From contig CALZHT010000021.1 of the NCBI GenBank assembly GCA_945787445.1, positions 1 to 39,539 of the forward strand: a stretch of 39,539 nt of DNA, read 5' to 3'. Positions 29,610-39,539 of this stretch are shown piece by piece (the stretch's first letter is position 1; every line of letters begins with the position of its first letter). Origin of the DNA: an uncultured Desulfobulbaceae bacterium. GTDB lineage: Bacteria > Desulfobacterota > Desulfobulbia > Desulfobulbales > CALZHT01. The translations under genes were made by a program, and so were the position numbers. Under the pieces are notes generated by a model. That model had not been told where the DNA came from, ran no database searches, and worked only from the letters and a program-made list of their open reading frames with translations.

Positions 29610-29690
29610 AACTTCGGCAGCCCCTCGATCCCGCCTCATAAGACAGGACAGGTAGCTTTGCGTCACCCGGTTACCCGAGTTTTGCCGTTT
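29610..29690 (-). promoter_or_regulatory. GEMM-I (cyclic-di-GMP class I) riboswitch aptamer 1
   Basis: Read on the minus strand from 29690 the RNA matches the GEMM-I pattern. It has CGGCAAAA, a stem ACTCGG-GTAA-CCGGGT with a GNRA loop, the conserved GACGCAAAGCTA, a second stem CCTGTC/GGCGGG, and the closing CTGCCGAAG. The outer helix is CGGCA with TGCCG. The bases aligned with G20 and C92 of the Vibrio Vc2 aptamer are G and C. This favours cyclic-di-GMP over the cyclic-AMP-GMP variant, which has A at position 20. It precedes a terminator and the six-gene DUF11-to-EAL gene set. Confidence 0.93.
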
Positions 29691-30088
29691 CGGTTTAATT
29701 TAAAGATTTACTACTCTGTAGTTTTTTCTCCTAATAAATTTATTTTAACCAATTAATTAATTATACCATTTCTTCCTGATAGAAATAAAACAAAATCGGA
29801 CATTTAAGCTTACTTTTTTAATACAAAGAAAATACTCTAATTAATCTCGCAACTTGTTGAAATTAGAGAAATAAATAAAAGGGGAACTATTTTTTATACA
29901 AAATAGGTAAAAAATATTTTTTAAAAAGCACCAAAAAATGCGTTTTGTTGATTGTTTATAGTGATACAGAAAGATAAAATGTGAAGCGGTGAAGGAAAAA
30001 GCTGGAATTCTTGACCTCGTTCCGACTGTAGAATTTGCAAAGCGCGTTTAACCATTCTATATATTTCGAATCACACTTTGTCGCCTCG
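29691..30088. other. AT-rich upstream region of riboswitch 1
   Basis: No gene is visible in these 398 bases. The 29700-29960 part is strongly AT-rich and should include the minus-strand promoter for the riboswitch transcript, but I cannot fix a -10/-35 pair with confidence. Confidence 0.45.
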
Positions 30089-32478: not shown

Positions 32479-35400
32479 TCACTTAACCCGAACAACCATC
32501 TCCACAGAAAAACTTGTATTGGTCGGCATATTGCCGGTCATGATCCATTTCACGTCTGTTACGCAATTGTCGTATCCGGCAGGCGCCGAACAGCCGGTGC
32601 TTACCGGCGTATAGGTCCAGCTGGTGCCATTATCGTCCGAGTAGGTAATACCGCTGGTCAAAGTGGAAGTTAAAGGATTGAATGTGGCGGTACCCACCTT
32701 GAATCCGGTATTGGTCGGGATTTGGTCGGTTACCTCTATATTAGAGGCATCCGTAAGGCTGACTGCATTTGTGCCTGTGGTGGTATAGGTAAGGTCATCG
32801 CCTGGGTTGGCATTGGGTTTATCGACATTCTTCGCAAGAGTAATATTGGCTGAGGTGGATGTGGTGCTCCCCTGGACCTGGTCGGTCTTAGTGCCGTCAT
32901 TGCTCGATGTGGCAGTAACAGTTACATCATAAGAAGTGCCGCCGACTACCGGGGTGGGGTTGCCGGCCGGGGTAACATTCAAAGTCCAGACTTTGCTCAA
33001 TCCCGCCCCGAGGCTTGCTATCGTATACCCCGCACCTGTAACATCTGCTGTACGGTCAGTGGCTGTATCATCCAGATACTGGATAGTAAAGTTCGAACCA
33101 TCACCTGTGCCGGTGATGACAAGATCGTCTGTTGAGGCGCTGTCATTCTCAAATTTGAGTGTATAGGAGACTGTGGAACCGCTGAGTACGCCCTGGGATT
33201 TCACTTGAATCGCAGCAGTTGCCTCATATGTATTATCGGTCATATAGGCGGGGTCACCCTCAGAAGAGAGTTTGATCATGGCATCAACTAGGAAATCGAA
33301 CCAGTCAATGGTATTCCCGCCGTCAAGTGAATTGGCAGGATTGATGGGTTTCTTTGCAGCATCGGAACCGGAAGCATCGGACCAGGATACATCAACATAG
33401 TCAATGGCTCTAGTAGCCGTGGCGCTCACCACAATCTCCCAATAATTGCCGGGGCTGTCGGATACCAGGTTGATGCGGTCGTCATCATCCAGACCGTCCA
33501 GAGTCAAAGTTCCATTGATGGTTTGAGTTGCAGTGTTATCAAAGGTAAGTGTTACGTCAGATCCGTTATTGGTCGATTCTGACTTGGTCAGGTTATTGAA
33601 TGTTGTCGAACCACTGATAGTCTGGTTTCCACCATTAAGCTCAATGGTGGACGTTCCGGCAATGAAGGTATCATTATTTATCCAGTCGCCAGAAACATTC
33701 CAGGTGGAGCTACCAGCACCAATAAAATTGGTCCCAGGATTATCAGTAGCAGCAATGATGACATTACCTCCAACAGTGACGGCTGCCGAACCAGCGTTGA
33801 ATGAGGCATATCTTGTATTGTTGCCTACATCACCAATGATCAGGTCACCACCGATAGATATGTCAATATTCTCAACCGTATTATCGAAGGAGAGGGTTTT
33901 ACCGACTCGGTCATGCCAAATGGTGAGTGTTCCCGGAACTATGAAGTCACTGGTAGTATCTCCCGGCGCTCTACCTAAAAAGCATGCCCAGTCCATACTG
34001 CCCCAGTTTTTGATAGTCACTTGGTTTCCATAGGTTGTTGCTGTAATGGGACGGGCAATCGACCAGGTCCTGATGGTATACAAAAATGTATCAACCGAAA
34101 TAGTGCCGTTATTGACGATGTGAGTCGGCGTATCATCAACCGCTCTTTCAAAGATACCAGCTCCGGTAATTTCACCAGTTGGATCAATTGTAAGATTATT
34201 ACTTGGATAGACAAGGGACATAGTAAGCCCTGCAGGTATAGTGAGGGTTCCGGTTACTGTCAACAAACCATATACTTTTATTCTGTCGACTCCTGTGCCT
34301 GAATTGATATCAATATCAGCGCCATTGGCAATCGTCAGGTTATAGAATATGGCACCGGTCCAGGTAGCAGCCGGATCGGTTGTGATGGTGTTGCTCTGGC
34401 CATTTGTACCAATGATGACCGTGCTTGTATCATAAGTAAATGTGCCGCCGGTAGTATCCCAATCTGCAGAAATTGTGAAGATATTGGCACCGGCTGTAAT
34501 CGTACCGTTGAGATCAATATTCCCGCCTGGCCCTTGGGTAGTCACATTGCCACCTGGTGTAAAACTATGCCCGGTGGGGATAAAAAGCTCTGCCCCAGCA
34601 ACTGCTGTCAGGTTATTGCTTCCATCCACTGAATAGAGAATCTCCGAGTCGATGTAAGGCTCAACAGCTGTCTTCATAAGAGCGTTTGTTAATGCACCAG
34701 CATTGTCATGGCGTGTAATAACTTGTTGATAGTAGATATCGAAGCCATTAAGGGTTTTCCCATCAGAAACGGTGACAGTTGTACCATCTGTAGTAATGTC
34801 CAAATCATCTTCATCAATATAAACAAGCAGCTGATCGCCGACACCTGGATTGGCAGAGATGCTGTAAACACCTGATGCATCAGTATCATCCGTTCCCGAA
34901 TTAACGCCATTTATAAGCAAACGAACAGTAACTCCAGCTCCTACATCGGTTGTCCCTTCATCTGAGTAGACAGTCCCTGAAATGAATGTACCAAACCAGT
35001 CGATATTATTACCGCTGTCCACAGAATTGGCTGGATTTACCGGAAGTTTGGTTGCATCGGACCCTGAGGCATCAGAATCAGTCACATCCACAAAATCAAT
35101 CGTTTTAACAGCTGTAGCGGCAAGGTTGAGGGTCCACTGATTGCCCGGGCTGAGCGAGACCAAGTTGATACGATCGTCGGCATCGAGGCCGTCAAGAGTG
35201 AGTGTACCGTTGATGGTTTGTGTAGCTGTGTCGTCGAAGCCAAGGATGACGTCTGTAGCATCATTGGTTGAATCAACCTTTGTAAAGTTGTTGAAGGTTG
35301 TTGAACCAATGATGTTCTGGTTACCTCCATCAAAAGTAACAGAGGAGGTGCCAGGATTGATATTTAGTATTCCAGTCCCTAATGCTGCACGCCATACCCC

Positions 35401-38400
35401 CTCATTGGTTATGTTTGCGCTGTTGAGGTTTAATGTATGGCTGCCGCCATTACTCCCTACCCTGAGACCTCCGCTCCCAATATCTACAGTCGAACTGCCA
35501 AAGTTAAACGTTGAAGAACCGGCCCAACCAGGTTCACCAAATGTCAGTTGATTTACAGTAATCGCATTATTTTGTGTGTTCACCGTAACGCCGGAATTTC
35601 CTGTTTCAACATCAACAAGCAGAACACTACTAATGGTCAATGGTCCTCCAATATTAAAAGTAGCATTGGAACCGCTGGGCCAGAGCCAGAATTGGCAGGT
35701 ATAATTTGTACCGCCCGTAACGGTAACGGTTCCATTTGAAGGACGATAGTAGAACGCGCTGATATTGATTATGGCGCCAGTATCTGTCAGCGGGGTGCCG
35801 CTGTTGGCAAACAAGCCTAACTCAAAAGCACCGGTGACAGTGCCTGTGCCAAGAGTGAGGTTATTAGCAACTCCGACATGGGATTGAAGTGAAGTTGTTT
35901 TGGTGGCTGCCGCCATATTGAGGTTATAAAAATGGGGGGTGTATTGCGTGCCAATTGTCTTGAGATTTGCGCTCTCCATCAGGTCCACGGTGCTGGTGTT
36001 ATAATTGAAGGTCCCCAACGATGAATCCCAGTTACCGGAAACCTGAATCATAGACGAACCTGCAGTGAGGATATTGTCACCGGAAGCGTTAGAGGCATGA
36101 ATCGTCAGATCGCCGTTGATATCGAGCGTTCCAGACCCGGAAATAACCTCCGTATAATTATCAGGTGAACCGTTTTCTCCGATGATCAGGTTGTTAATGG
36201 TGATATTACGATTTTCTACCGAGTTATCAAAGACCGTGCGGATCGTAGACGTTCCACCGGCGATAGTTAGATCCCCATTCACTGTGAGGTCACCATCGGA
36301 CAGATAGAAAAATGTATCGAAGACCATGCCGGAGCTGTCAATGAGCAGGTTGCCGTCAAAGACTCGACCCTGAATCGGTTTACCAGGCAGAACATAAGTT
36401 GCGGCATTCGCATAAAAGTGGTAGGTGCTGACCGAGATGGTGGTATTGACTCCATAGGTGTTACCGGTATAAATATTTCGAACTGACTGGCGGAAAGTCC
36501 CGGCCCCGCTCAGTGTGGAATTGTCGTTCATTGTCAGATTATTTTGTGTATAGACCGTGTATCCTGCTGCAATATTGAATGTACCGGAAATAATCAGCGA
36601 CCCACCGATAGCCGTACCAAAAGAACTCTGGGCAGTAATGTTTGCGCCCGAATTTATCGTGAGATTATAGAACTGATTACCGGCAGGGGCTGTCATATCA
36701 TTAGCTGCCCCGGTCATCACCACGGTACTTGTATCGTATGTAAAGGTTCCACTGGAATGATCCCAATCGCCACTTACGGTGAAGGTATTACCATCAGCTG
36801 TCAAAGCGCCAAGAATCTTCATATGCTTGGTTATCACATTGCCAGAGCTTGCAGAATCGGGCCGATAGGTGTTGCCGGACTTGATATACAACTCTTCGTT
36901 GATCAAGGCGGTGGTGGTATCAACAGTCAGGTCATTAGAGGCATCAACCTCGTGGAAGACATCTTCACTACCTGAGACAGAATTGTCATATTGACTAAGA
37001 TCGACATTGGACAAGGTCTGGTTATCATCACTACCGATGGTCAGGTGCTCTTCTATGAGCTGGATGCCGGTGATGTTGCCGGTGCCGTCATACTTAGTCA
37101 CCGCCACTGCTTCGTTGGCATTGGCTGCACCTTCGATATAGACCGTGATCACATCACCGCTGTTAGGAGGGGTGACCCCCTCGATAGTCCAAATCCCGGC
37201 AACAGTTGGTTGTGTTTCTGCCTGCAGGACGCCGTTGACAGCTATCCGGATAGTGCCGGTGTCAGTACAATCAGTCGATTGATCAGACTGTTTACAGGTT
37301 CCGGATATGGATGTGACTGGAGATCCAAAACTTAGATAAGTGGCAGGACTACTTTGATTGTTGAATTCGGTTCTGATCCAATCGGCACCACGGCTAATTC
37401 CCGAGATGCGTACTTCATCAATAGTGCCGTCAAATCCAGTCCCATATCCTATAGTATGGGCTTGCCCTGATGAGTCTCCAATACTTCCTCCTGAACCTGA
37501 GCTGGCATCTTCCAGGCCGTTTATGTAAATTTTCCTGTCGGCTGCATCAAGAGTGCCTACAACATGAGTCCATAAATTTCTTGGAACAGTGCTGGTTGAA
37601 CAAAGCCCACCATTAGATTTCCAATGAATCAAATCAGTACCACAATTTTCTCCAGGAGGCATAACGCTATTTTCATAATGAAGCCACCATCCACTTGCTA
37701 CAACTCCCCTTTTATTTGTAATGCCTTGCTGTGTAACGCTCCCACCTGTTGGTTTAATCCATGCTGAGACTGTTATATCCCCTGTAATATTCAAGCTGGC
37801 AGAGTCTGGAGATTGAATATAATATATTGGGATATTATCCGGGCTGCCAGCAAAATTGAGACTCCCGTCAACCTTACCGCCCACCTGATCTCCTGGGCCC
37901 ATACCGCCCATTGATGTTCCGTCATTATTGAAGGAAGTGCTGTCCTTCATCTGTGGCGGTATCCCGGAGGGATCTTCGCTCAAATGCCAAACACCCTTAA
38001 AATTATTACTCCCCCCTTCGTCCCAGGTACCGGGAACATTCTCCTGATTAATGCACCCACTATTTCCATAGTAAATGTAGATAATCGTATCAATAGAACT
38101 GGACAGGGTTTCAATTTCAACCCATGCAACAAGTTCACCGGTGCCATTGTTAAAATCCTCGATTTCGTGGTCAATCTTGGTAGTTCCATCCGATTTTGTG
38201 AAAAGTATATCTTCACCGTTTGGGCATGCACTGGCTGCAAGTTGACCATCAGTTGCTTTGTATATCAGTGCCGGAAACCATGATCGGTCAGTATTCGGCG
38301 TCATGGAGGCATCGATTATAATCTGTTTACGATAGTTCCAGTTGCTATCGTACCAACCTGCGTGAGCAGAGGTGGCAAAAGCAAAGAATAACAGGAGAGA

Positions 38401-38445
38401 AAGGATAACCAATGGGGCAATCCTTATTTTACGACGATATTTCAT
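32479..38445 (-). CDS. Very large secreted DUF2341-LamG-repeat-DUF11 surface protein
   Basis: From the ATG at 38445 the protein has 1988 residues; the frame is open to a GTG at 38574. The chosen start gives a clear signal peptide (MKYRRKIRIAPLVILSLLLF, cleavage after SAHA). Next come DUF2341 (GWYDSNWNYRKQI, IYIYYGN) and a LamG/concanavalin-like domain (GVWHLSEDPSG, ITVSAWIKPTGG, GTIDEVRISGISRG). About 1400 residues of strand-rich repeats follow (GTFTYDTSTVVMTG, GTFNYNTSTVDLM), probably a beta-solenoid, and two DUF11-like domains end the protein (ITLAKNVDKPNANPGDDLTY). No anchor, sortase or PEP-CTERM signal is visible. It is likely an adhesin or surface-layer protein, and expression should depend on riboswitch 2 immediately upstream. 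Confidence 0.87.
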   Translation of the reverse strand: MKYRRKIRIAPLVILSLLLFFAFATSAHAGWYDSNWNYRKQIIIDASMTPNTDRSWFPALIYKATDGQLAASACPNGEDILFTKSDGTTKIDHEIEDFNNGTGELVAWVEIETLSSSIDTIIYIYYGNSGCINQENVPGTWDEGGSNNFKGVWHLSEDPSGIPPQMKDSTSFNNDGTSMGGMGPGDQVGGKVDGSLNFAGSPDNIPIYYIQSPDSASLNITGDITVSAWIKPTGGSVTQQGITNKRGVVASGWWLHYENSVMPPGENCGTDLIHWKSNGGLCSTSTVPRNLWTHVVGTLDAADRKIYINGLEDASSGSGGSIGDSSGQAHTIGYGTGFDGTIDEVRISGISRGADWIRTEFNNQSSPATYLSFGSPVTSISGTCKQSDQSTDCTDTGTIRIAVNGVLQAETQPTVAGIWTIEGVTPPNSGDVITVYIEGAANANEAVAVTKYDGTGNITGIQLIEEHLTIGSDDNQTLSNVDLSQYDNSVSGSEDVFHEVDASNDLTVDTTTALINEELYIKSGNTYRPDSASSGNVITKHMKILGALTADGNTFTVSGDWDHSSGTFTYDTSTVVMTGAANDMTAPAGNQFYNLTINSGANITAQSSFGTAIGGSLIISGTFNIAAGYTVYTQNNLTMNDNSTLSGAGTFRQSVRNIYTGNTYGVNTTISVSTYHFYANAATYVLPGKPIQGRVFDGNLLIDSSGMVFDTFFYLSDGDLTVNGDLTIAGGTSTIRTVFDNSVENRNITINNLIIGENGSPDNYTEVISGSGTLDINGDLTIHASNASGDNILTAGSSMIQVSGNWDSSLGTFNYNTSTVDLMESANLKTIGTQYTPHFYNLNMAAATKTTSLQSHVGVANNLTLGTGTVTGAFELGLFANSGTPLTDTGAIINISAFYYRPSNGTVTVTGGTNYTCQFWLWPSGSNATFNIGGPLTISSVLLVDVETGNSGVTVNTQNNAITVNQLTFGEPGWAGSSTFNFGSSTVDIGSGGLRVGSNGGSHTLNLNSANITNEGVWRAALGTGILNINPGTSSVTFDGGNQNIIGSTTFNNFTKVDSTNDATDVILGFDDTATQTINGTLTLDGLDADDRINLVSLSPGNQWTLNLAATAVKTIDFVDVTDSDASGSDATKLPVNPANSVDSGNNIDWFGTFISGTVYSDEGTTDVGAGVTVRLLINGVNSGTDDTDASGVYSISANPGVGDQLLVYIDEDDLDITTDGTTVTVSDGKTLNGFDIYYQQVITRHDNAGALTNALMKTAVEPYIDSEILYSVDGSNNLTAVAGAELFIPTGHSFTPGGNVTTQGPGGNIDLNGTITAGANIFTISADWDTTGGTFTYDTSTVIIGTNGQSNTITTDPAATWTGAIFYNLTIANGADIDINSGTGVDRIKVYGLLTVTGTLTIPAGLTMSLVYPSNNLTIDPTGEITGAGIFERAVDDTPTHIVNNGTISVDTFLYTIRTWSIARPITATTYGNQVTIKNWGSMDWACFLGRAPGDTTSDFIVPGTLTIWHDRVGKTLSFDNTVENIDISIGGDLIIGDVGNNTRYASFNAGSAAVTVGGNVIIAATDNPGTNFIGAGSSTWNVSGDWINNDTFIAGTSTIELNGGNQTISGSTTFNNLTKSESTNNGSDVTLTFDNTATQTINGTLTLDGLDDDDRINLVSDSPGNYWEIVVSATATRAIDYVDVSWSDASGSDAAKKPINPANSLDGGNTIDWFDFLVDAMIKLSSEGDPAYMTDNTYEATAAIQVKSQGVLSGSTVSYTLKFENDSASTDDLVITGTGDGSNFTIQYLDDTATDRTADVTGAGYTIASLGAGLSKVWTLNVTPAGNPTPVVGGTSYDVTVTATSSNDGTKTDQVQGSTTSTSANITLAKNVDKPNANPGDDLTYTTTGTNAVSLTDASNIEVTDQIPTNTGFKVGTATFNPLTSTLTSGITYSDDNGTSWTYTPVSTGCSAPAGYDNCVTDVKWIMTGNMPTNTSFSVEMVVRVK
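33296..33640 (-). repeat. Internal duplication, C-terminal copy
   Basis: Encodes GGNQTISGSTTFNNLTKSES through to the segment ending NTIDWF. It is a close copy of the 34990-35330 segment, with long shared stretches such as TATQTINGTLTLDGLD and DRINLVS. Each copy ends a larger module (regulatory-like Ig domain, solenoid repeats, this segment), so the protein seems to have grown by module duplication. Confidence 0.85.
34990..35330 (-). repeat. Internal duplication, N-terminal copy
   Basis: Encodes GGNQNIIGSTTFNNFTKVDS through to NNIDWF, the counterpart of the 33296-33640 segment. Upstream of each copy an INGV-type Ig-like domain and TFTYDTSTV strands recur, consistent with a repeat unit of several hundred residues. 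Confidence 0.85.
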
Positions 38446-38612
38446 GCCACTGGTAAATAGAGATTTATGCCCAGCAGGGTGTGGTCCCCGTCTGATGGTT
38501 AGTTTTTTGAGTATATGGGGTTTGCTTATTGGCATAAAAGCATCAAGTTTTTGGTTATTAATTCTTCTTTGCACCCTTTATATCTTTGTGGTTTAATTAG
38601 TTGTCAGCCAAT

Positions 38613-38645
38613 AAAAAAAGCCTGCAGCGGGAGGGGTGACAGGCT
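38613..38645 (-). terminator. Riboswitch 2 expression-platform terminator
   Basis: On the minus strand AGCCTG, a 15-base loop, and CAGGCT precede seven T's. The stem is shorter than in riboswitch 1 because the 3' arm has diverged, but the GTCACCC segment (38640-38634) is kept. That segment is complementary to GGGTGAC in aptamer 2 (38723-38717). Confidence 0.8.
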
Positions 38646-38668
38646 CTGTCTCCTAACATCGTTTGAAA

Positions 38669-38745
38669 ACTTCGGCAATCCCACTATACAGCCATGGGCG
38701 GGACAAGTAGCTTTGCGTCACCCAGTTACCCGGGATTTACCCTTT
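38669..38745 (-). promoter_or_regulatory. GEMM-I (cyclic-di-GMP class I) riboswitch aptamer 2
   Basis: On the minus strand: GGGTAAA, the stem CCCGG-GTAA-CTGGG with GNRA loop, the conserved GACGCAAAGCTAC, a second stem TCCCGC/GTGGGA, and the closing TTGCCGAAG. The outer helix is GGTA with TGCC, including a G-U pair. The G20- and C92-equivalent bases are G and C, as in aptamer 1. It lies between the paralogue ending at 38829 and the large gene starting at 38445, which it should control. Confidence 0.92.
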
Positions 38746-38828
38746 TGACCATACATTTCAGTATTTTCTCATCTCATCTCTTCTTTTAAAGAGGTTTTTA
38801 AGCTAAATTCCCCTTTAATCTTTCACTT

Positions 38829-39539
38829 TTATTTAATTATTACAATCATTTCCACACTAAAATTCGTCCCTGTAGGCATATTGCCGGTCATGGTCCATTT
38901 CACGTCAGTGAGGCAGTAGTCATATCCTGCCGGCGCCGAACAGCCGGTGCTTGCCGGGGTATAAGTCCAACTGGTGCCGTTGTCGTCTGAGTAGGTTATA
39001 ACGCTGGTCAATGTTGAAGTTATAGGATTGAAGGTGGCGGTACCCACCTTGAAACCGGTATTGGCCGGGATTTGGTCGGTTACTTCTATACTAGAGGCAC
39101 CTGTAAGGCTGGCTGCATTGGTGCCGGTGGTGATATAGGTAAGGTCCTCGCCTGGGTTGGCATTGGGTTTATCGACATTCTTCGCAAGAGAGATATTGGC
39201 AGAGGTGGATGTGGTGGTCCCCTGGACCTGATCGGTCTTGGTGCCGTCATTGCTCGATGTAGCGGTAACAGTTACATCATAAGAAGTACCTCCGACCACT
39301 GGTGTTGGATTTCCGGAGGGAGTGACATTAAGTGTCCAGACCTTGCTGGCGCCGGCGGCCAAGCTGCTGATTGTATATCCTGCTCCTGTTACTGCTGCGG
39401 TGCGGTCAGTGGCTGTATCATCCAAATACTGGATAGTAAAGTTCGAACCATCGCCTGAGCCGGTGATGACGAGATCATCTGTAGCAGGGCTGTCATTCTC
39501 GAACTTAAGTGTATATATTGCTGTAGAGCCGCTGAGCAC
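38829..39539 (-). CDS. DUF11 surface protein, C-terminal part; paralogue of 32479-38445
   Basis: Only the C-terminal 236 residues lie in the window; the frame continues past base 39539. They are nearly identical to the last 236 residues of the 32479-38445 product (DLVITGSGDGSNFTIQYLDD, NVDKPNANPGEDLTY, GYDYCLTDVKWTMTGNMPTG), ending VEMIVIIK. The upstream part is presumably another large secreted protein. Such close similarity points to recent tandem duplication or gene conversion. The first Met seen in the frame is internal and not a true start. Confidence 0.85.
   Translation of the reverse strand: MLSGSTAIYTLKFENDSPATDDLVITGSGDGSNFTIQYLDDTATDRTAAVTGAGYTISSLAAGASKVWTLNVTPSGNPTPVVGGTSYDVTVTATSSNDGTKTDQVQGTTTSTSANISLAKNVDKPNANPGEDLTYITTGTNAASLTGASSIEVTDQIPANTGFKVGTATFNPITSTLTSVITYSDDNGTSWTYTPASTGCSAPAGYDYCLTDVKWTMTGNMPTGTNFSVEMIVIIK

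Follow-up and report, generated by a model that had tools for sequence, protein, structure and literature searches.

A probably degraded c-di-GMP-I riboswitch copy with a detached terminator ahead of a giant surface-protein gene of a Desulfobulbaceae bacterium

In this work, we analyzed a minus-strand element lying ahead of a giant DUF2341-LamG-DUF11 gene in a contig stretch of 39,539 nucleotides from an uncultured Desulfobulbaceae bacterium (hereafter, the window). This element (site 2; Table 1) is probably a degraded member of a well-known riboswitch family, and one of many copies. The reading that we prefer, with moderate confidence, is that site 2 is a true paralogous c-di-GMP-I copy of the kind with a detached terminator (OFF), which has lost its pairing constraint and probably binds c-di-GMP only weakly or has lost binding altogether. 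It is then doubtful that c-di-GMP controls the giant gene.

An earlier note on this DNA had claimed a second GEMM-I aptamer at this place and had proposed a covariance search as a check. The search with the Rfam model RF01051 (GEMM-I, c-di-GMP-I; curated cut-off of 35 bits) bears the claim out: it finds both sites in the window, some 9 kb apart and both on the minus strand, site 1 with 62.7 bits and site 2 with 38.8 bits, the latter only 4 bits above the cut-off (E = 2.9e-4 for the window and 3.6e-6 for positions 38400-38900 alone). The best match of site 2 within the clan is RF01051 and not RF03167. An independent covariance model (R1), built on 15 related aptamers with site 2 excluded from training, gave 45.0 bits (E = 1e-13) for site 2 and 74.1 bits for site 1. 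Because R1 still finds site 2 although trained without it, we regard site 2 as a true homologue. A third candidate of the window (31493-31428), lying within a TPR gene, scored 12.8 bits and was set aside as a chance look-alike.

Table 1 Features of site 2 and its surroundings (window coordinates)
Feature	Position	Strand	Remarks and basis
c-di-GMP-I aptamer copy (site 2)	38671..38751	-	core intact; P1 and P3 pairing largely lost; RF01051, R1
Site 1, c-di-GMP-I aptamer that looks intact, comparison copy	29613..29696	-	RF01051 62.7 bits, R1 74.1 bits
Giant ORF	32479..38574	-	intact; likely ATG 38445 (~1988 aa), alternatives ATG 38535 and GTG 38574 (up to 2031 aa); DUF2341, LamG, C-terminal DUF11-type repeat (TIGR01451)
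Upstream DUF11-type gene	38829..39539	-	truncated at the contig end; lies 77 bases upstream of the aptamer
Linker hairpin GTTTTC..GGAGAC	38648..38670	-	aptamer-terminator spacer, common to paralogue S04; free fold, paralogue comparison
Intrinsic terminator	38613..38646	-	stem AGCCTG/CAGGCT, 7-T tract, about -10 kcal/mol; detached from the aptamer
GGGTGAC, P2 3' strand and core	38717..38723	-	candidate antiterminator strand; perfect 7-base complement of 38640-38634; own-versus-swapped test
GTCACCC, terminator 5' arm and loop	38634..38640	-	partner of 38723-38717; complementarity
GGTAAATCCC	38732..38741	-	5' strand of the competing 9-bp misfold; free fold
GGGATTGCC	38674..38682	-	3' strand of the competing 9-bp misfold, from the aptamer 3' strand; free fold

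The core motifs of site 2 match those of site 1, as the earlier note stated; its further statement that the stems had changed with pairing kept did not hold. Compared with S04, the closest paralogue (contig C81), site 2 carries 11 substitutions at paired positions, which break 5 of 23 pairs with no double compensation, and the same substitutions placed at random break 4.99 pairs on average. Between S04 and site 1, five paired positions differ and no pair is broken; between S04 and S13, a paralogue on contig C13, 12 paired positions differ; one pair is broken and four are restored by double changes. Stem by stem, in site 2 (i) P2 keeps five of its six pairs and the GTAA loop, (ii) P3 has four of 15 pairs broken and its segment is unable to close (-2.8 kcal/mol vs -19.9 in S04), and (iii) the 5' arm of P1 reads TGGTC where ATCCG stood, mismatched to the 3' CCGAA. 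Forcing the aptamer pairs costs 17.4 kcal/mol in site 2, the worst value among 124 relatives (median 1.6). By energy models that leave out tertiary contacts and the ligand, the aptamer fold lies 13-21 kcal/mol above the free fold in site 2 and 0-6 kcal/mol above it in three paralogues, or 4.5-10.6 vs 0.4-2.7 kcal/mol with softer constraints; the ranking was stable over three parameter sets at 10, 25 and 37 C. The computed free fold of site 2 contains a 9-bp helix, GGTAAATCCC/GGGATTGCC, which destroys P2 and P3.

The earlier note was silent on the direction of control; the architecture of the platform suggests an OFF switch. Among elements of the window type and their relatives, detached terminators start 12-48 nt past the aptamer, and the linker and terminator 5' arm of site 2 are nearly identical to those of S04. 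The segments GGGTGAC and GTCACCC are perfectly complementary in site 1, site 2 and S04. Over 41 distinct relatives with detached terminators, own pairs gave a mean duplex energy of -9.36 kcal/mol and swapped pairs -8.50 (p = 0.0007, or p = 0.006 without this genome, both values being optimistic because the sequences are related). This advantage of own pairs supports an antiterminator in the ligand-free state and hence OFF logic. An antiterminator formed by the aptamer 3' strand and the terminator is also complementary, yet no better than swapped pairs (p = 0.57), and the evidence that core position 34 covaries with the terminator is suggestive only (Fisher p = 0.057). The window-type platform belongs to a Desulfobulbales subtype with a terminator complementary to the P2 3' strand, and is predicted to act as an OFF switch. 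In the inherited design, bound c-di-GMP would lock P2 and P3 in the aptamer and leave the terminator 5' arm free, so that transcription stops; without ligand, GGGTGAC would pair with GTCACCC of the terminator and transcription would continue. Since P1 and P3 fail to form and the misfold dominates, site 2 today would most likely be a weak attenuator ahead of the giant gene, largely insensitive to ligand.

Several features count against decay of site 2, namely the intact giant gene, the unchanged core and the S04-like linker and terminator arm. Site 2 retains the core motifs AAAAGG, GACGCAAAG and TGCCGAA, and all the ligand-contact residues (G20, C92 and GACGCAAAG in Vc2 terms, with Rfam columns assigned to what we take to be the Vc2 numbers of the crystal structure). 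Position 20 is G in both window sites and not the A of cGAMP (GEMM-Ib) riboswitches; c-di-GMP is therefore the expected ligand of any member still binding. In the GEMM-Ib aptamers of Geobacter, A20 underlies cGAMP selectivity and the A20G exchange leads to c-di-GMP (PMC6456294). Relative to S04, none of the 27 unpaired core positions has changed, compared with 11 of 46 stem positions (Fisher p = 0.005). As far as sequence comparison goes, residual selection, recent decay or rewiring could each explain the unchanged core; base composition may contribute to the contrast, given that C to T exchanges make up many of the changes and that the core is A-rich. A working c-di-GMP OFF switch of lowered affinity, whose intact core binds at high c-di-GMP and then shuts off the giant protein, would accommodate the score above the Rfam cut-off, the retention of every core and ligand-contact position and the conserved platform, including the GGGTGAC/GTCACCC match. 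The broken P1 and P3 and the large energy cost of the aptamer fold speak against it, and we consider it unlikely, although it is the alternative to be taken most seriously.

The location of an aptamer and terminator ahead of a protein of about 1990 residues, as originally described, was confirmed by an intact reading frame of ~1988 aa from ATG 38445. No ribosome-binding site was clear enough to mark its start among 38574, 38535 and 38445; a start at 38535 may give the giant protein a long basic N-terminal extension (MPISKPHILKKLTIRRGPHPAGHKSLFTSG; window 38535-38400, minus strand) before the signal peptide. In 146 genomes of the order no orthologue of the giant protein was found, only weak DUF2341/LamG similarity, and a contig search with it turned up partial matches to a MAG with the label Thiomicrorhabdus. 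The DUF11-type gene on the same strand stops 77 bases ahead of the aptamer, no further terminator was called in this gap, and promoter scans ahead of site 2 showed nothing above chance. Site 2 might thus now serve mainly as the terminator of this upstream gene, the giant gene being expressed by read-through or from a downstream promoter. We hold this to be improbable, as simple promoter scans are weak evidence and an unchanged aptamer core is unexpected from a terminator alone.

In a further, still less probable reading, the unchanged core beside unpaired stems reflects rewiring of site 2 and not decay: the substitutions A17T, G73A and C74T (aptamer numbering) together complete the 9-bp GGTAAATCCC/GGGATTGCC helix, and the resulting switch would differ in its resting fold, have a shifted threshold or bind another ligand. 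The idea that this fold is under selection found no support, random placements of the substitutions being equally stable (p = 0.44).

The RF01051 model finds 24 copies in the genome of the window, with site 2 third-lowest by Rfam score. Nine of these copies are canonical and nearly all of the other 15 have a flipped C21-G46 pair (Vc2 numbering); many flipped copies are now filed by Rfam as c-di-GMP-I-GGC (RF03167). Elements of the flipped subtype usually build the 5' arm of the terminator from the 3' strand of the aptamer itself (54 cases), a construction from which ON control is predicted. Such ON platforms occur commonly both here and across the order, and class I switches of adhesins, Bc2 among them, are of the ON type (PMC6366702), so that site 2 might be imagined as a working ON switch of the same kind, with c-di-GMP opening the giant gene; this is very unlikely, given that its terminator is detached and the aptamer 3' strand is not used, unlike in the ON subtype. 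Chance similarity, with no riboswitch copy at all, could appeal to the margin of only 4 bits over the Rfam cut-off and is effectively refuted by the E value from a model trained without site 2; the linker and terminator common to S04 also speak against it.

Other genomes of the order also contain many c-di-GMP-I copies; 24 was considered as a record for this genome and set aside, as others reach at least 19. Some copies are clustered, with three within 5 kb on contig C41 and two each on C24, C88 and C87 (contigs of G000). Two further copies (C87:1743 and C46:38723) have scores no better than that of site 2 and may be worn too. In two genera of the family, the same riboswitch subtype stands ahead of homologous small proteins (L066, at C13:108690, and L139, on contig C132 of G002), a pair that is apparently orthologous and conserved.

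Clostridioides difficile 630 carries 16 c-di-GMP riboswitches, 12 of class I and 4 of class II, of which only 11 regulate, the rest being less well conserved (PMC6366702); these non-regulating copies are a direct precedent for a worn site 2. Like other RF01051 members, site 2 has the core motifs, G at position 20, the P2 hairpin and a place before a surface-protein gene, and it differs from them in its largely lost P1 and P3 pairing and low score. Class I switches of C. difficile follow OFF logic, and Cd1 resembles site 2 in its detached downstream terminator, in a candidate antiterminator that takes an aptamer strand and in a design predicted to be OFF (PMC9262584, PMC6366702). However, the candidate antiterminator supported here is the P2 3' strand plus core, whereas Cd1 uses the P1 strand, and Cd1 controls flagellar genes. 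The RF03167 family belongs to the same clan and is common in this genome, and S04 itself scores best with it; unlike site 2, most of its members in this genome carry a flipped C21-G46 pair, and their ON-type terminator overlaps with the aptamer. Bc1 and Bc2 of Bacillus thuringiensis are likewise class I elements with terminators, Bc2 standing before the adhesion gene cap, and the genes downstream of Bc1 are unaltered when c-di-GMP is changed (PMC11218506, PMC6366702). In contrast to site 2 as explained here, Bc2 is an ON switch and Bc1 still binds its ligand, masked by a second terminator. Within the literature collection searched, we found no publication joining c-di-GMP riboswitches with Desulfobulb- names.

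The case illustrates that an Rfam match barely over threshold is not evidence of control, and that genomes rich in c-di-GMP-I copies probably include some worn ones, as has been reported for C. difficile. It also bears on the proposal that two transcripts of the window answer to the same messenger: site 1 looks intact, but joint control through site 2 finds no support, given its low score, its lost P1 and P3 and the energy needed to form the aptamer. Should the giant gene no longer be under c-di-GMP control while the site 1 operon still is, the two surface systems would not be co-regulated as assumed. In addition, for a Desulfobulbales subtype the comparison yields an antiterminator model that can be tested, in which the P2 3' strand pairs with the terminator.

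Site 1 is followed by six tightly spaced minus-strand genes (window 29391-15897), encoding two DUF11 proteins, a 2101-aa DUF11-OmpA giant, a FecR-like protein, a histidine kinase and a response regulator with PAS-GGDEF-EAL domains. In the last of these (window 18134-15897, minus strand), the GGDEF motif is SGDEF and the EAL motifs look intact, so that the protein is probably a c-di-GMP phosphodiesterase. As this gene is among the six behind site 1, the apparently intact riboswitch may act on the gene of a c-di-GMP enzyme and so form a feedback loop; riboswitch control of such enzymes is said to be rare (PMC6366702). Upstream of site 1, at about 30250-30090 on the minus strand, lies a short DUF11-like coding remnant (KYLFDKVVDIPTADPGEELTYTTTGTNAASLTDAL), apparently a pseudogene fragment.
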